Source: Propionibacteriaceae bacterium AM104-82
GTDB lineage: Bacteria; Actinomycetota; Actinomycetes; Propionibacteriales; Propionibacteriaceae
Reading direction: 5' to 3'
NCBI GenBank assembly: GCA_027658995.1
Contig: JAQDQK010000001.1
Location: 124,001-188,000, forward strand
DNA: 64,000 bases
The notes below the pieces were generated by a model. It was not told the origin of the DNA and ran no database searches. It worked only from the letters and a program-made list of their open reading frames with translations. A program made the translations under genes and the position numbers. Within the stretch, counting starts at the first letter, position 1. Each line of letters starts with the position of its first letter. Shown here piece by piece: positions 11,188 through 29,594 of the stretch.

Positions 11188-14100
11188 ATGGCCTATTTGC
11201 GTTACCCCCATCTGCACGGAACCGACGTTGTGTTCGTGGCCGATGACGACCTGTGGCTCGCCTCCCTCGACGGCGGCCGCGCCTCCCGGCTCACCTTCGG
11301 TGAGGTGGCCGCACGCAGCCCCCGATTCTCGCCCGACGGCTCGCGGGTCGCGTTCGTCTCCGCCTCCGGCGGGGGCAACGACGCCTACGTCGTCGACCTG
11401 GACGGCACCACCACCCGGCTCACCTGGCTGAGTGCCCGCCGGCTGCAGATCTCGGGCTGGCTGGACGACGAGCACATCCTGCTGGCCTCCGACCACCAGG
11501 GCATCCACCGCATCGACGCGTCCATGTACTCGCTGTCGCTGTCGGGCGACCTGGAGCGGCTGCCCTACGGCGTGGCCACCTCCGCCGCCGTCGACAAGAA
11601 GGGGCGCGTGGCCGTCGCCACCTCCAACTTCCGCGACCCGTCCGGCTGGAAGCGCTACCGCGGCGGCATGGCCACCCGCCTGTATGTGTCCAACGGCAAG
11701 GGCGACTGGACGCGGATCCTGCCTCAGGAGGAGGCCAGCCTGTTCGGTCCGACCTGGGTCGGCGACCGGATCGTGTTCACCTCCGACCTTGGCGACGGCC
11801 CCGACGTGCAGGCCCAGGTCTGGTCGGTCAACGCCTCGGGCAAGGACCTGCGCCAGCACACCTCGCACACCGAGGCCGAGGGATACGTCCGCGACGCCGC
11901 CAGCGACGGCAAGGGCATCGTCTACCACGCCCATGGCCAGCTCTACTGGCTCGCAAGCCTCAAGGCTGAGCCGCAGCGACTCGACATCCAGGTGCCCGTC
12001 GGTGAGCCCCGGCCCGTCACCCTCGCCCCAGGCGACCGCCTTGAGCAGGTCGTGCCCGACCAGGGCGCCGACGGCTCCCTGCTGGAATGGCGCGGCGCCG
12101 CGTACTTCCTGACGCACCGCGGCGGCCCCGCCCGCGCCCTCGCCGACCAGCCGGGCGTGCGGATCCGTGAGCCCCGCTTCCTCGGCGGCACGGGCAAGGC
12201 CGTGTGGGTGAGCGACGCAGAGGGCGACGACTGCCTTGAGATCCGCCAACTCGACGGCGACAAGGCGCCCCGCAGGCTCGCCGCAGGCCGGATCGGCCGG
12301 GTGCTGGCGCTCGAGCCAAACAAGGCGGGCACCAAGGTCGCCGTCGGCAGCCACGACGGCGCGATCCACCTCGTCGACGTGGCGCGCGGCTCCGTGAAGA
12401 AGATCGGCGTCTCCGAGGGAGGCGAGCCGACCGGCTTCGCCTGGTCGCCCGACGGCCGCTACCTGGTGTGGCGGCAGGCGATCGCCAACGAGGGGACGCT
12501 CGGCCGCCTCGTCGGCTACGACCTGACGGCGGACAAGGCGTTCACGCTGACCCGCGGCCAGTTCAACGACTTCTCGCCGGTGTTCACCCCCGACGGCAAG
12601 CACCTGTGCTTCCTGTCGAGCCGCACGATCGACCCCAGCTACGACGAACTGACCTTCGACCTGTCGTTCAGCAACACCGTCCGGCCCTGGCTCGCCCCGC
12701 TCAGCGCGAGCGAGCCCGCCCCGTTCGGGCCCGCCGCCGACGGCTGGCCGATCAGCGAGCCCGCAGAACGCGACGACGCGAAGGCAGAAGACAAGCCCGA
12801 CAAGCCCGAGGGCGAGGCCAAGGAGGAGGTCGCCATCGAGTTCGACGTCGACGGCTTCGAGGACCGGATGGTGTCCTTCCCGGTGCCGTCGGGGCGCTAC
12901 GCGTCGCTGCAGGCGACCAAGGACGGCCTGCTCTGGGTGTCGCTGAAGTCGGCCGGAGAGTTGGGCGCCGTCCGCGCAGGCGTCGAGGGCGAGATCAAGG
13001 ACCAGGTCGAGCACTTCTCGTTCAAGTCCCGCAAGGTCTCGGTCGTCGTCGACGCCGCAGACGGCGCCGCGGTCTCCGGGGACGGGGAACGGTTGCTGGT
13101 GCGCAACGGCGAGGACCTGTGGGTCCAGTCCGCCGAGCAGGCCCCGGGCGATGACGACGACGCCAAGACCCACGTCGACCTCTCGCGGCTGCGTCGCGAA
13201 CTGTCGCCGCGGGCCGAATGGCGCCAGATGTACGCCGAGAACGCCCGCATCATGCGCGACCACTACTGGCGCGACGACTTCGACGGCACCGACTGGGACG
13301 CCGTCGTGGCGCGCTACGCGCCGCTGGTGGAGCAGATCGCAACCCACGACGACCTCGTCGACGTGCTGTGGGAGACCGTCGGCGAACTGAACACCTCGCA
13401 CGCCTACGTGATGCCGCCGGCGGCGCACGACGACGCGCCCCGCGTCGGCTTCCTCGGGGCCGAGTACCGCCGCAACGCCAAGCGTGAGGTCGTCATCTCG
13501 CGCGTGCTGCGCGGCGAGAACTCTGACCCGGGAGCCCGCGCGCCGCTGCGCGCCGCGGGCGTGGCCGCCGAGGCAGGGGACGTGATCGTCGCCGTCGACG
13601 GCAAGCCGACCGGCGACGTGCCCGACCTGGGCGAACTGCTGCTCGGCTCGGCGGACAAGGTCGTCGAACTGACCCTTGCAAGGGGCAGGCAGAAGCGCCG
13701 CGTCGCCGTCGTGCCGACCGCCAGCGAGTCGGCCATGCGCTACCACGAGTGGGTCGCGGGCCGCGTCGAGTACGTGGAGAAGCATTCCGACGGGCGGCTG
13801 GGCTACGTGCATGTGCCCGACATGGTGGCCAGCGGCTGGGCCGAGTTCCAGCGCCTCGTCGACACCGCCATGCGTCACGAGGGCGTCATCGTGGACGTGC
13901 GCTTCAACGGCGGCGGTCACACCTCCGAACTGATCCTCGAGCGGATCGCCCGCCGCGCGATCGGCTGGTCCGGGGCGCGCCACATGGGCGTGCTCGGCAC
14001 CTACCCGTCGCAGGCCCGTCGCGGCCCCGTGGTGTTCGTCACCAACCCGTACGCGGGCTCCGACGGCGACATCGTCACGGCGGCGGCGCAGAACATGGGC

Positions 14101-24292: not shown

Positions 24293-26248
24293 ATGACTAT
24301 GACGCCAGCGCTTCCAACCCATTCGGTGTTCGACCGGCTCGAGCCGCTGCTCGCGCAGGTGAGCAAGCCGATCCAGTACGTCGGCGGGGAACACAACTCC
24401 GTCGTCAAGGACTGGGACTCCGTCGACGTGCGTTGGTGCCTCTCGTACCCCGACGCGTACGAGGTCGGGCAGCCCAACCAGGGCGTGGCGATCCTGTACG
24501 AGGTGCTCAACGAGCGCGACTGGATCCTCGCGGAGCGCACCTACTCGGTGTGGCCGGACATGGAGGAGCAGATGCGCTCGCACTCCGTCCCGCAGTTCAC
24601 GCTCGACGCGCACCGCCCCGTCGGCCTGTTCGACGTGCTCGGAGTGTCGTTCTCGACCGAGTTGGGCTACACCAACCTGCTGAACCTGATCGACCTGTCG
24701 CAGCTCAGCCTGCACGCGGCCGACCGCGGCGAGGACGAGCCGCTGGTCATCGCGGGAGGCCATGCGGCGTTCAACCCGGAGCCGATCGCCGACTTCATCG
24801 ACGTCGCGGTGCTGGGCGACGGCGAGGAGGCCTCGCTGCTGATCTCCGACATCATCCGCGAATGGAAGCTTGACGGGCGCGAGGGCGGCCGCGACGGGCT
24901 GCTGATGCGGCTCGCGCTGACCGGCGCCTTCTACGTGCCGCGCTTCTACGACGTCGACTACCTCGACGACGGTCGCATCCAGCGCGTCGCCCCCAACCGC
25001 GCGGGGGTGCCGCACCAGGTCCGCAAGCACACGCTGATGGACCTCGACCAGTGGCCCTACCCCAAGAAGCCCATCGTGCCGATGGCCGAGACGGTGCACG
25101 AGCGCTACTCCGTCGAGATCTTCCGCGGCTGCACCCGCGGCTGCCGGTTCTGCCAGGCGGGCATGATCACCCGCCCGGTGCGCGAGCGCAACATCGAGAC
25201 CATCGGCGCCATGGTGCAGGGCGGCCTGCAGGCGACGGGTCTCGAGGAGATCGGGCTGCTGTCGCTGTCGTCGGCCGACCACTCCGAGATCGCGGAGGTG
25301 ACCCGCCAACTCGCGGACCGCTACGAGGGCACCAACGTGTCCCTCTCGCTGCCGTCGACCCGCGTCGATGCCTTCAACATCGACCTGGCAAACGAACTGA
25401 GCCGCAACGGCCGTCGCTCCGGCCTCACGTTCGCGCCCGAGGGCGGCTCGGAGCGGATGCGCAAGGTGATCAACAAGATGGTCACCGAGGACGACCTGAT
25501 CGACACGGTGGCCGCGGCGTTCTCGTCCGGGTGGCGCCAGGTGAAGCTGTATTTCATGTGCGGCCTGCCGACCGAGACCGACGAGGACGTGCTGGCGATC
25601 GCCTCGCTCGCGACCCGCGTGATCGAGACCGGCCGCAAGGCCTCAGGCACCCGCGACATCCGCTGCACCGTCTCCATCGGCGGCTTCGTGCCGAAGCCCC
25701 ACACGCCGTTCCAGTGGGCGGCGCAGGCCAGCGCCGAGACGATCGACCGGCGCCTGATGCTGCTGAAGGAGACCATCCGGCAGGACCGCAACTACGGCAA
25801 GGCCATCGGCATGCGCTACCACGACGGCAAGCCGGGCATCATCGAGGGCCTGCTGTCGCGCGGCGACCGTCGCGTCGGCCGCGTGATCGAGCGGGTCTGG
25901 CGCGAGGGCGGCAAGTTCGACGGGTGGAGCGAGCACTTCAGCTTCGAGCGGTGGACGACCGCAGCCAACGAGGAACTGGCCCTCGACGGCATCGACCTTG
26001 ACTGGTTCACCACCCGCGAGCGCGGCTACGAGGAGGTCCTGCCGTGGGACCACCTCGACGCGGGCCTCGACCGCGACTGGCTGTGGGAGGACTGGCAGGA
26101 CGCCGTCGACGAGCGCGAGGTCGAGGACTGCCGCTGGACGCCGTGCTACGACTGCGGCGTCTGCCCGCAGATGGACACCGAGATCCAGATCGGCCCCACG
26201 GGTCGCACGCTGCTTCCGCTGTCGGTCGTCAAGCCCGACCTGGCCTGA
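24293..26248 (+). CDS. TIGR03960-family B12-binding radical SAM protein
   Basis: 651 residues. It has an N-terminal cobalamin-binding-like region (PDAYEVGQPNQGVAILYEVL), then a radical SAM core with the iron-sulfur cysteines Cys280, Cys284 and Cys287 in RGCTRGCRFCQAG. A C-terminal cysteine cluster (CYDCGVCPQMD) is also present. In most actinobacteria this gene lies directly before the TIGR03936 gene and rne, and its product is thought to act with TIGR03936, though the reaction is unknown. Here the partner is 16 kb away at 42325. ATG 24293 lies 10 bases after a TATTCT -10-like element, giving a very short leader. Confidence 0.93.
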   Translation: MTMTPALPTHSVFDRLEPLLAQVSKPIQYVGGEHNSVVKDWDSVDVRWCLSYPDAYEVGQPNQGVAILYEVLNERDWILAERTYSVWPDMEEQMRSHSVPQFTLDAHRPVGLFDVLGVSFSTELGYTNLLNLIDLSQLSLHAADRGEDEPLVIAGGHAAFNPEPIADFIDVAVLGDGEEASLLISDIIREWKLDGREGGRDGLLMRLALTGAFYVPRFYDVDYLDDGRIQRVAPNRAGVPHQVRKHTLMDLDQWPYPKKPIVPMAETVHERYSVEIFRGCTRGCRFCQAGMITRPVRERNIETIGAMVQGGLQATGLEEIGLLSLSSADHSEIAEVTRQLADRYEGTNVSLSLPSTRVDAFNIDLANELSRNGRRSGLTFAPEGGSERMRKVINKMVTEDDLIDTVAAAFSSGWRQVKLYFMCGLPTETDEDVLAIASLATRVIETGRKASGTRDIRCTVSIGGFVPKPHTPFQWAAQASAETIDRRLMLLKETIRQDRNYGKAIGMRYHDGKPGIIEGLLSRGDRRVGRVIERVWREGGKFDGWSEHFSFERWTTAANEELALDGIDLDWFTTRERGYEEVLPWDHLDAGLDRDWLWEDWQDAVDEREVEDCRWTPCYDCGVCPQMDTEIQIGPTGRTLLPLSVVKPDLA

Positions 26249-26269
26249 TGGGCCCACGCTGAGCTGGAC

Positions 26270-26294
26270 CCACCCGGGGGTGCGGTGCGGGTGG
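26270..26294 (+). terminator. Hairpin after the TIGR03960 gene
   Basis: CCACCCG (26270-26276) pairs with CGGGTGG (26288-26294) across an 11-base loop, 21 bases after the stop. There is no T-run directly after it, so it is a weak candidate. The 80-bp element at 26299 begins four bases later. Confidence 0.4.
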
Positions 26295-26298
26295 CTCG

Positions 26299-26378
26299 TT
26301 GAGCATGTTTGGTAACTCGTTTCAGATCTGATCGTTAAAACCCGGCGTGTCGCGCAACGAGCAACCAAACATGCTCAA
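26299..26378. repeat. 80-bp palindromic element, copy 1
   Basis: The ends are a perfect 15-bp inverted repeat: TTGAGCATGTTTGGT at 26299-26313 and its complement at 26364-26378. A second pair lies inside, CTCGTT (26316-26321) and AACGAG (26356-26361). The centre is AT-rich for this genome and holds the palindrome TCAGATCTGA (26322-26331). It lies between convergent genes, 50 bases past the stop of the minus-strand lipoprotein gene. A related element of identical length lies on the other side of that gene at 27522-27601. There is no T-run, so it is not a standard terminator. Confidence 0.85.
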
Positions 26379-26428
26379 GCCCTCACCCAACCCCAGCGAC
26401 CCGGGACCGGCGATAGGGCGGGACAGGC

Positions 26429-27469
26429 TCAGCGTGAGACGAAGACCGGTTCGCGCTGCTGCAGCATCTGCTCCGCGAGGGCGGGGCTCGCGCCCTCGGC
26501 GATGTCGAGCGTGACGATCCCGACGTTGCCCTTCGCGGTGACCGATGCCACCGACAAGCGCTCCGAGATCGGGGTCTGGGTCGTGAACATCATCCCGTCG
26601 CGCCAGACCGCCTCCAGGGCTGCGGTGTCGGGCTCCTCGGCGAACCGGTACGCGACCACGACCTGACCGCGCTTCCACCCGAGCCCGACCGTGTCGAACG
26701 GCGCCGGCGGCGTCGCCTTCTCCAGGGCCTCCATCTGCTGGGCGGCCGACTCGGGCGTTGCCATCAGGTCGGGGGCCATCGGCATCGCGTCGGTCAGGAG
26801 CGCCGAGAACACGTCCTCGCCGTCGAGCGCCTTGGCGACCTCGACGAGTCCCTCGTCCTCGGCCAGCGTGGGGGCGTCGCCGCCCAGCCAGTCGGTGACA
26901 AGCGGTGTGCTGGTGCTCATCGCGATCGCGTTCTCCTTCGCCGCGAACCGGACCGGCCGACCGATCGGGTCGATGCCCTCCCTGGCCATGTTGGCGGCCC
27001 CGTCCTCGCCGTCGATGTCGCTGCGGATCCCGTCGCCGACGTCCGTGAGGGAGTCCGGCAGCGTGTCGGGACCCAGGTCGCCCATGACGACCGTGAAGGG
27101 CTGCTCGCCGAGCCCGTTGGCGACGAACCGGTCGGCTTCGAGCAGGTCGAAGCCCGACAGTTCCTCGAAGACCGCCGGATCGGAGCGGACCGGCAGGTCC
27201 GGGAACGGCACGTAGACGGGGGAGTTGACGCCGAGCAGCCTCTGGGCGTTGCTTTCGTCGTGAGGGTCGAAGCCCCCGGCCTTGCCCGCCCCCTCCAGGT
27301 CGCCCGCGACCACGAAGCGCGGCGTCCCGATGGCGTCGGCGGGCACCTGCTCGAGCGACGCGGCAACTGACCATTTGCTGTCGACGTTGACCCCGCCGGT
27401 CGAACAGCCCGCGAGGGCGAGGCAGGCGATGGCAACGGTTGCTGCGGTGGCGCGGAGGGAGCGGCGCAT
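26429..27469 (-). CDS. Lipoprotein of unknown function
   Basis: 346 residues with a clear lipoprotein signal: a basic start, a hydrophobic core and the lipobox LALAGC with Cys22 as the lipidated residue. The mature part is soluble, acidic and has no cysteines or motifs that I recognise. It would be anchored on the outer face of the membrane. ATG 27469 has an AGAGG ribosome-binding site. The gene stands alone between two related 80-bp palindromic elements (26299-26378 and 27522-27601), which suggests that gene and elements moved or evolved together. A role beside the upstream BCCT transporter is possible but unproven. Confidence 0.8.
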   Translation of the reverse strand: MRRSLRATAATVAIACLALAGCSTGGVNVDSKWSVAASLEQVPADAIGTPRFVVAGDLEGAGKAGGFDPHDESNAQRLLGVNSPVYVPFPDLPVRSDPAVFEELSGFDLLEADRFVANGLGEQPFTVVMGDLGPDTLPDSLTDVGDGIRSDIDGEDGAANMAREGIDPIGRPVRFAAKENAIAMSTSTPLVTDWLGGDAPTLAEDEGLVEVAKALDGEDVFSALLTDAMPMAPDLMATPESAAQQMEALEKATPPAPFDTVGLGWKRGQVVVAYRFAEEPDTAALEAVWRDGMMFTTQTPISERLSVASVTAKGNVGIVTLDIAEGASPALAEQMLQQREPVFVSR

Positions 27470-27521
27470 GGAAAACCTCTCGTCGGAAGTCGTCAGGCTA
27501 ACAACGGTGCGGGGTCAGGCG

Positions 27522-27601
27522 TTGAGCAGCATCCGTGCCTCGTTGACGATGCGAGCGCTAACACGCGTCCCTACGGCGCACGAACATCGACTACTGCTCA
27601 A
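27522..27601. repeat. 80-bp palindromic element, copy 2
   Basis: Same length and plan as the element at 26299-26378: terminal TTGAGCA / TGCTCAA, CTCGTT at internal positions 18-23 and ACGA at 59-62. An ungapped alignment by eye gives 48 identical bases of 80. The outer inverted repeat here extends to 12 bp (27518-27529 with 27594-27605). It starts 10 bases past the stop of the minus-strand BCCT gene and lies upstream of the lipoprotein gene. Confidence 0.8.
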
Positions 27602-27611
27602 CGCCGGGACC

Positions 27612-29594
27612 TCACCGAGCGTCGGGGCCCGGTGCCTGCTCCGTGACGGCGGTGTCGGGGACCTCGCCGTCGGGGACCTGCGGGACGGTGCCATCGGCGA
27701 CGTCCTGAGCGTCGCCCTCGGGGGTCCAGCCGTCGGCGTAGGTGCCGGTGGCGTAGTCGTAGTCGACGGGCTGACCCTCCTCGTCGGTGCGCTGGTACCA
27801 GTCGGTGACCTTCGCGTCGTGCGAGTCGAAGTCGGCTCCGGCGCCCTCGCCCTCGGGGGCGCGCTGCACCGCGAGGCGGAAGTCGTCGCCGTACCGGTCG
27901 ACGCCCTTCTTGACGGCGTCGCGCAGCGCCCAGGTGGCGTAGGCGCGGCGGATCACCAGCGGGTCGGAGCGCAGGTCCTTGGCAAAGGAGATCATCATCG
28001 CGACCAGGATCGCCGCGAACGGGATGGCCGTGACGATGATCATGTTCTGCAGGCCCGACAGGGCGTCGCCGCCGCCGATCAGCAGCATCACCACGGCGAT
28101 GCCCATCATGGCGAGGCCCCAGAAGATCGTCACCAGCTTCGCGGGCTCCGAGTTGCCGCGCTGCGACAGCGTGCCCATCACGATGGAGGCCGAGTCGGCA
28201 GAGGTGATGAAGAAGATCGCGATGATCACCATGCCGAGGATCGGCGTGACCTGCGCAAGCGGCAGCGTGCTCAGCACGTGGAAGAACATCTCCTCGGGGT
28301 CGCCGTCGGCGGAGATCGGGTCGCCCTGGCTGCGCAGCCAGATGCTGCTGCCGCCGAGGATGCCGAAGGTCATCACGCACACGAGCGTCGGCATCGTGAT
28401 CACGTACAGGACGAACTCGCGCAGCGTCCTGCCGCGGGAGATCTTCGCCAGGAAGATGCCGACGAACGGCGACCAGGAGATCCACCACGCCCAGTAGAAG
28501 ACGGTCCAGGTGCCGGTGAATGTCGCGGCTTCCGCGCCGTAGGCGGGGCCGAGGCCCAGCATGTGGAAGAAGCTCTGGAAGTACTCCATGATCGCGGCGG
28601 GCCACAGGTTCAGGATGAACAGCGTCGGGCCCGCGATGAAGATGAACAGCGACAGCACAAGGGCCAGCACCATGTTGATGTTGGACAGCCAGCGGATGCC
28701 GCGCCCGACGCCGGAGACGGCGGAGGCGATGAAGCAGGCGGTCAGCACCGCGATGATCGCGATCAGCGCCGCGTTGGGGAGCTTGCCGATCCCGCCGACG
28801 ATCTCGACCCCGCGGCCGATCTGCATGGCGCCGATGCCGAGCGAGGCGGACGTGCCGAACAGCGTGGCGACGATGGCGAACATGTCGACCATCCGACCCG
28901 CGATGCCGTCGGCGCGCTTCTGGCCGAGCAGCGCTACCAGGATCGAGCTCATCAGGGGCACCCGGCCGCGGCGGAACGCGCCGTAGGCCACGGCGGCGCC
29001 GACCAGGCCGTAGATCGCCCAGGGGCCGATGCCCCAGTGGAAGAAGGTCTGCGCGAGGGCCTTGACGGCGGCCTCGGGCGTCTCGGGGGTCGCGGCGTCG
29101 GGGGCGGGCGACTGGTAGTAGGTCAGCGGCTCGAGCGGGCCGAAGAAGATGATGCCGATGCCGATGCCCGCGGAGAACATCATGGCGATCCACGAGAACT
29201 TGCGGTACTCCGGCTTCTCGTCGTCCTTGCCGAGCGGGATGTTGCCGTAGCGGCTCATCGCGATGAACAGCATGAACAGCAGGATCACCGCGACGAGGCC
29301 GGTGAACAGCCAGCCGACGTGGGCGAGCGTCCACTCCAGCGCGACCTTCGAGGCGGACGAGAGGGTCTCGGTCGAGACGACACCCCAGGCGATGAACGCG
29401 ATGATCAGGACGGCGGTGACGCCGAAGACGACCTTGTCCGTTCCGTACCGGTTTCGCTGCTCCTCGACGCCGATGCCAGGCACGAGGGCCGGGTGGATGC
29501 CGTGGGGGTAGGTCTCGTCGACCTGCTTGAACAGGCGTCGGGCCTTCGGCCCGATGCCCTCCTTCTGCGACCGGTTGTGATGGTCGGACTGCAC
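27612..29594 (-). CDS. BCCT-family transporter (choline/betaine/carnitine type)
   Basis: 660-residue secondary transporter with about 12 helices. Family landmarks are FSAGIGIGIIFFGPLEPLTY in the third helix region and the BCCT signature YWAWWISWSPFVGIFLAKIS, whose tryptophans form the substrate site. A hydrophilic N-terminal tail of about 50 residues and an acidic C-terminal domain of about 120 residues flank the core; in BetP-like proteins such tails sense osmotic stress. GTG 29594 has a strong GGAGGAG site six bases upstream. Likely substrates are glycine betaine or choline, for osmoprotection. Sodium or proton coupling cannot be decided by eye. Confidence 0.92.
   Translation of the reverse strand: MQSDHHNRSQKEGIGPKARRLFKQVDETYPHGIHPALVPGIGVEEQRNRYGTDKVVFGVTAVLIIAFIAWGVVSTETLSSASKVALEWTLAHVGWLFTGLVAVILLFMLFIAMSRYGNIPLGKDDEKPEYRKFSWIAMMFSAGIGIGIIFFGPLEPLTYYQSPAPDAATPETPEAAVKALAQTFFHWGIGPWAIYGLVGAAVAYGAFRRGRVPLMSSILVALLGQKRADGIAGRMVDMFAIVATLFGTSASLGIGAMQIGRGVEIVGGIGKLPNAALIAIIAVLTACFIASAVSGVGRGIRWLSNINMVLALVLSLFIFIAGPTLFILNLWPAAIMEYFQSFFHMLGLGPAYGAEAATFTGTWTVFYWAWWISWSPFVGIFLAKISRGRTLREFVLYVITMPTLVCVMTFGILGGSSIWLRSQGDPISADGDPEEMFFHVLSTLPLAQVTPILGMVIIAIFFITSADSASIVMGTLSQRGNSEPAKLVTIFWGLAMMGIAVVMLLIGGGDALSGLQNMIIVTAIPFAAILVAMMISFAKDLRSDPLVIRRAYATWALRDAVKKGVDRYGDDFRLAVQRAPEGEGAGADFDSHDAKVTDWYQRTDEEGQPVDYDYATGTYADGWTPEGDAQDVADGTVPQVPDGEVPDTAVTEQAPGPDAR

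Follow-up and report, generated by a model that had tools for sequence, protein, structure and literature searches.

The closest described systems are ERIC (also IRU or RU-1; 127 bp) and YPAL (RU-2; about 168 bp). In the excerpts of two reviews available to us, these enterobacterial repeats are small intergenic imperfect palindromes that contain no gene, are regarded as mobile by inference and often lie at 3′ ends, and the excerpts name no mover (PMC2229807, PMC10969869). The same excerpts leave open the route by which these repeats spread and the reason for their persistence at gene ends (PMC2229807, PMC10969869). The family analyzed here resembles ERIC and YPAL in all of these features but has another sequence, occurs in another phylum and possesses a nearly fixed core of 80 bp. 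It also recalls REPs, which the excerpted account in PMC3733652 presents as dispersed palindromes, 20–40 bp hairpins with a GTAG or CGTC tag, the CGTC class having no known transposase. No description of the family was found in the open-licence literature on this group of Actinomycetota, to which it would add a sizeable and easily recognised set of mobile hairpins.

The window, the whole stretch of 64,000 nucleotides that we analyzed, contains two elements, E1 (26299..26378) and E2 (27522..27601), neither of which is assigned to a strand. Both had been noticed in a preliminary description, and its account of their sequence proved accurate: each is exactly 80 bp long, starts with TTGAGCA, ends with TGCTCAA and carries CTCGTT at positions 18–23 and ACGA at 59–62, and the two agree without gaps at 48 of 80 positions, the number previously counted by eye. 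This likeness exceeds chance. Of the 66 inner nucleotides, 34 are identical, compared with a mean of 16.6 and a maximum of 30 in 20,000 base shuffles, and the pattern TTGAGCA-N52..80-TGCTCAA, which occurs twice in the window, was found in 0 of 100 dinucleotide shuffles. E1 has type 1 arms (TTGAGCATGTTTGGT). Its left arm (26299..26321) and right arm (26356..26378) form inverted repeat I5, which is 91% complementary, and are predicted to fold into a 15-bp outer stem, a 2x2 internal loop and a 6-bp inner stem. In alignments and listings, the E1 centre (26322..26355) contains CGGCGTGTCGC and GATCGTTA-like stretches that are repeated in many other copies in either order or orientation. E2 has type 2 arms, beginning with TTGAGCAGCAT and ending with GACTACTGCTCAA, and a mismatched outer stem. 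As RNA, E1 folded far better than its shuffles (z = −6.2 and −7.8 for the two strands); folding of E2 was moderate (z = −2.3 and −2.2) because of the mismatches in its outer stem. Covariance model R1 scored E1 at 77.4 bits and E2 at 60.2 bits, both elements being part of its training set. At the gathering score, Rfam reported only two tRNAs in the window, with weak sub-threshold matches at E1.

E1 lies between the convergent stops (26248 and 26429) of a TIGR03960 B12-binding radical SAM protein gene (24293..26248, plus strand) and a lineage-restricted lipoprotein gene (26429..27469, minus strand), in which the lipobox LALAGC can be read. E2 lies 10 bp past the stop (27612) of a BCCT transporter gene (27612..29594, minus strand), yet is also 52 bp ahead of the lipoprotein start (27469). 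The earlier statement that each element follows a minus-strand gene thus holds for the lipoprotein gene with E1 and the BCCT gene with E2 but was incomplete, E1 being downstream of two convergent genes rather than of the lipoprotein gene alone. The lipoprotein matched nothing in Pfam or NCBIfam. It was found in 3 of the 198 genomes compared from this bacterial family and among four database proteins, and a scan of genome contigs found no relative. One of the family genomes, G018, contains partial tandem copies of this lipoprotein.

E1 and E2 belong to a dispersed family found in Tessaracoccus and part of the Propionibacteriaceae. The 198 family genomes were reached via a radical SAM search and the Propionibacterium MAG L001; the closest, G012 (Tessaracoccus aquimaris, Propionibacteriaceae), matches the window at about 93% and about 91% over the two blocks flanking E1. 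The exact pattern gave 109 matches in G012, 82 in G013, 32 in G017, 22 in G040, 20 in G041 and 15 each in G019 and G038, compared with 2 in G012 and 0–3 per genome overall for a reversed-pattern control. One match in G012 (415878, L116) was not a family member and its row was dropped from the analysis, as was the chance-like G038:C15:136653. At least one match occurred in 57 of the 198 genomes, many of these being single matches at the control level. A covariance model built from 46 hand-picked copies matched 27 of the 198 genomes, 15 of them with at least 10 hits among the matches listed (both strands counted), and 20 of 391 order-level genomes, every one among the same 27; the strict filtering applied in each run discards weak matches. 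The outermost base is altered in G023 and G033 (GTGAGCA or ATGAGCA), so that the constant end is TGAGCA. Tandem groups repeat whole units of 129–183 bp. The dnaA gene of G012 was located, and no link between element density and chromosome position is claimed from the matches, whose positions were covered up to about 2.93 Mb. A distant blastn search of plasmids with E1 and an exact arm-pattern search of viral contigs, both narrow tests, gave no match.

The many copies in relatives support the earlier suggestion of a dispersed, MITE-like repeat, and the outcome named earlier as its refutation, a lack of copies and shuffle-level scores, clearly did not occur; the 109 matches in G012, the 27 of 198 matched genomes and the derived insertion of E1 all speak for it. 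As in MITE- or ERIC-like families, many short copies without genes are located mostly between genes, and relatives provide both occupied and empty sites. The stop-to-stop gap between the radical SAM and lipoprotein genes is 180 bp in the window but 12 bp in G012, 5 bp in G018 and 2 bp in G016, indicating that E1 and its surroundings are a derived insertion. Homology to G012 ends at 26248 and starts again at 26420, and the extra DNA that holds E1 (26249..26419, no strand) has no alignable counterpart in G012, G016 or G018, with insertion ends that are not sharp. Around this locus, the covariance model found no match in either G018 or G016. The best match to E1 is G012:C1:3862117, identical at 77 of 80 positions (runner-up, 68 of 80), and this twin is far from the empty site, which is located at about 531.9 kb. 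From these comparisons, E1 appears to be a fairly recent arrival. E2 has an orthologue in G012 (L114 13007-13086; 74 of 80 identical) and is missing from G016, where the BCCT–lipoprotein gap is 45 bp rather than 142 bp and the promoter-side sequence can be aligned. Empty sites, predicted for a mobile family, thus exist for E1 in three relatives and for E2 in one. No target-site duplication, a possible difference from ERIC and YPAL, was seen at the sites compared, where the insertion ends are not sharp.

The lipoprotein gene keeps its two neighbours both in G012, where E1 is absent, and in G016, where neither element is present, so that the bracket consists of two separate insertions. Judged from sequence comparison, the split from G012 would be younger than E2 but older than E1, the gene being older than both elements, and the pairing of E1 and E2 around one gene is probably coincidental. 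The idea that the elements mark or move gene cassettes is not supported, given the unmoved lipoprotein gene and an integron integrase above the cut-off in only 1 of 20 genomes. In addition, the neighbours of the 66 loci in G012 and the window share no gene family beyond large paralogue groups; in the absence of enrichment among neighbours, a gene-neighbour family was rejected.

The core length is nearly fixed at 79–81 bp. In the window plus about 0.95 Mb of G012, lengths of 72–84 bp were permitted, yet 75 of 83 matches were exactly 80 bp. Two arm types occur side by side in G012: type 1, which is E1-like and has the 2x2 internal loop, and type 2, which is E2-like and has the mismatched outer stem. 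Near-invariant across copies are the ends and an internal TC/GA; the remaining arm bases vary between subfamilies yet remain paired. This replacement of arms with pairing kept, together with ends that persist across subfamilies, distinguishes the family from ERIC and YPAL. Among 141 copies selected beforehand for TTGAGC ends and for complementarity at 14 or more of 22 pairs, base 7 was paired in 98% and T19 and C20 in 97–98%, bases 1–6 being constant by the filter. Position 8 was paired in 97% of these filtered copies, with four pair types, compared with 28% if the two sides were independent. In an alignment of the 46 hand-picked copies, 88.1% of cells were paired, compared with 70.1% after shuffling and at most 40.5% after sliding, and 202 cells were altered on both sides as against 82.6. 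Because of the pre-filtering and hand-picking, the paired fractions in both sets are inflated, and two of five covariation measures for the 46 copies (pairs changed on both sides and further pair types) did not exceed those of shuffles. The centres are variable but, by eye, recycle GCGACACGCCG and TTGAACGTTCAA-like stretches in either half. The outward flanks are C-rich over about 15 nt, with CACCC in 29 of 132 and its reverse complement in 6 of 132. A copy-specific extended outer stem was unsupported, flank pairing being −28.4 kcal/mol with a copy's own flanks and −28.3 kcal/mol with swapped flanks.

G038 and G040, which are relatives of each other, allowed a comparison that is independent of the pairing filter; the copies were found by their ends, and positions 1–7 were therefore excluded. 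Fourteen of the 15 pattern matches in G038 were kept, and 13 of these 14 had an orthologue in the G040 stretches compared; the remaining copy, C17:37709, had no partner among 20 G040 stretches. Across the 13 pairs, arm positions 8–24 were changed at 45 of 442 sites (10.2%), flanks at 326 of 1469 (22.2%) and centres at 90 of 426 (21.1%). The divergence of the arms is half that of flanks and centre (Fisher's test, arms versus flanks, p = 4e-9; centre versus flanks, p = 0.69). Moreover, 11 pair positions were changed on both sides, compared with 2.9 expected, a number reached by 0 of 5000 shuffles, and 8 of the 11 are Watson-Crick pairs in both G038 and G040. Selection on a hairpin or a paired site explains both the arm conservation and the compensatory changes. 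Template-switch repair of imperfect palindromes, in the partial account available to us, can likewise bring arms into agreement, so covariation alone is no proof of function. In the opposite direction, three G040 copies (L218 8549, L231 7561 and L234 3296) had no counterpart at the aligned G038 place, the alignments there being poor.

To describe placement relative to genes, we collapsed tandem copies into 66 loci and used our own crude gene caller (coding fraction, 0.89). Sixty-three of the 66 loci were outside predicted genes. The nearest boundary was a 3′ end at 45 of the 63, compared with 31.2 under length-weighted random placement, and 0 of 5000 draws reached 45. Divergent gaps were avoided (9 of 63 loci versus 17.5 expected, p = 0.008), and convergent gaps held 21 loci, compared with 17.1 under the length-weighted null (p = 0.16) and 11.4 under the per-region null (p = 0.003). 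Type 1 elements pointed in the same direction as co-directional genes at 8 loci and in the opposite direction at 15; an oriented 3′-UTR RNA was rejected because of this lack of orientation bias. For the broader proposal of a structured RNA at 3′ ends, which is possible, the position of 45 of 63 loci speaks in favour, and the unfixed orientation and the lack of a fitting Rfam family speak against.

It is possible, though we would not bet on it, that the elements are functional RNA hairpins at transcript ends, acting as bidirectional terminators or as stabilisers of mRNA ends, and that selection maintains them with spread being secondary. The 3′-end bias, the strong folding of E1 and the constrained, compensating arms of the G038 and G040 orthologues would all be expected, and a symmetrical element would serve two convergent genes, like the pair that meets at E1. 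However, the hairpin of an intrinsic terminator is present without the T-tract that should follow it: the absence of T-runs noted earlier is correct, and the first 15 nt of the outward flanks contain only 5–10% T. Nor would a terminator need fixed TTGAGCA ends, and neither the unfixed orientation nor the 9 loci between divergent genes is accommodated. The polarised insertion of E1 and its near-identical distant copy require a spreading step in any case. If instead the arms were sites of about 22 bp (TTGAG...CTC) for a DNA-binding protein, the 80-bp unit being two inverted sites of a regulatory or nucleoid set, the near-invariance of bases 1–7 and 19–20 among the 141 copies and the scarcely varying core length would follow, and the similar units found in G040, repeated head to tail every 31 bp to either side of cores, would fit as well. 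We consider this unlikely: the neighbouring genes have no function in common, arm bases 8–15 vary between subfamilies within one genome, unlike the sites of one protein, and the 31-bp unit has 0 or 1 match in the three other genomes searched.

Two known classes of mobile palindrome were rejected as very improbable. One class, the REPs that a Y1 (RAYT) transposase mobilises, is likewise palindromic, intergenic, dispersed and interrupted by insertion sequences, but the present elements differ from REPs in length (about 80 bp) and in tag, having TGAGCA ends. Furthermore, among 26 genomes Y1_Tnp (PF01797) was detected only in G004, where the exact pattern has no match, and was absent from the ten element-rich genomes tested (G012, G013, G017, G018, G019, G021, G038, G040, G041 and G045; G020, G023, G025, G033 and G036 were outside the searched set). 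Integron attC and VCR sites have lineage-specific palindromic arms and conserved end boxes. The present elements share imperfect palindromy, conserved ends and lineage-specific arms with these sites, and an integron integrase exceeds the curated cut-off in G017, with a partial match in G023 (242.7 bits; cut-off, 265). On the other hand, 18 of 20 genomes, G012 included, gave weak matches only (best, 82.8 bits); an integrase above the curated cut-off occurs in 1 of 20 genomes and not in G012. The copies are dispersed rather than arrayed with cassettes, their tandem groups repeat the element and not genes, most carriers have no integron integrase, and the lipoprotein gene stays in place in genomes without E1 or without either element. 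The G017 integrase is located at L317 (G017:C1:3176653-3177432; 383.5 bits). As a separate observation, G018 contains several identical-scoring tyrosine recombinase genes (frames of 354, 329 and 370 aa), apparently in repeated mobile elements.

REPs are known targets of IS3, IS110, IS4, IS256 and IS5, according to the part of PMC1525189 available to us; the present family hosts insertion sequences too, the difference being that these are IS30. All three close IS30-family transposase copies in G012 are inside the centres of type 1 elements (L121 8950-10248, L164 about 11236-12529 and L206 about 1483-2776) and their proteins are 100% identical. Elements abound without a close IS30 in G013, G018, G019, G021, G038, G040 and G041, indicating that IS30 is a visitor and not the mover; conversely, the covariance model matched nothing in G016, a genome with six IS30-like genes. 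A solo-arm search for a parent transposon in about 0.95 Mb of G012 returned only the IS30 copies inside elements, which have their own ends. The family is thus a target for IS30 insertions; it is also a possible marker for strain typing.

E1 and E2 are probably copies of a non-autonomous, hairpin-forming family of mobile DNA, comparable to ERIC and YPAL, in Tessaracoccus and part of the Propionibacteriaceae. The mobility in this explanation rests on the polarised insertion of E1 and on the near-identical E1 copy elsewhere in G012. A trans-acting recombinase or transposase would recognise the terminal TGAGCA and the inner TC/GA, whether the DNA is double-stranded or folded as a single strand, and would copy the unit, that is, the core with roughly 10–40 bp per side, into intergenic DNA. 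Insertions that damage promoters would be lost, leaving the surviving copies beside stop codons, where a hairpin transcribed from either strand may function as an mRNA end or attenuator; a role at transcript ends is thus possible. No mobilising enzyme was found, the ten element-rich genomes searched having no Y1 (RAYT) transposase and 19 of 20 genomes no integron integrase above the cut-off, and this counts against the explanation. So do the retention of 13 of 14 copies and the constraint on the arms, which go beyond what would be required of a decaying parasite. A more specific version, which we regard as rather improbable, is that the mover is an unrecognised DNA recombinase specific for hairpins and distinct from both Y1 transposases and integron integrases. 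Such an enzyme would gauge a folded unit with a fixed length of 80 bp, would read TGAGCA and the inner TC/GA and would tolerate full replacement of the other arm bases provided that these remain paired, so that each lineage has its own arm dialects. The fixed length and the paired replacement of arms make the family well suited to studying the movement of such elements and their persistence at gene ends.

Other repeats were seen alongside the family. G040 has spaced direct repeats of 31 bp with an iteron-like look, made of units starting with TTGAGCC or TTGAGCACGACTTCGG, which have opposite orientations on either side of cores (for example, L228 11342-11514, L226 700-926 and L231 7499-7560). 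The 31-bp unit had 29 forward and 27 reverse matches in G040, 1 in G038 and 0 in G041 and G012. A different palindromic repeat, starting with TTGAGCATGCACAA and outside the family, is located just upstream of a gene start at L116 15820-15960 and L089 1501-1581 (G012 and G014). In G013, a second palindrome type of 90 bp has TTGAGCA ends and another centre (TCTGCTGACGATGC; L128 11603-11692 and L129 1104-1193).
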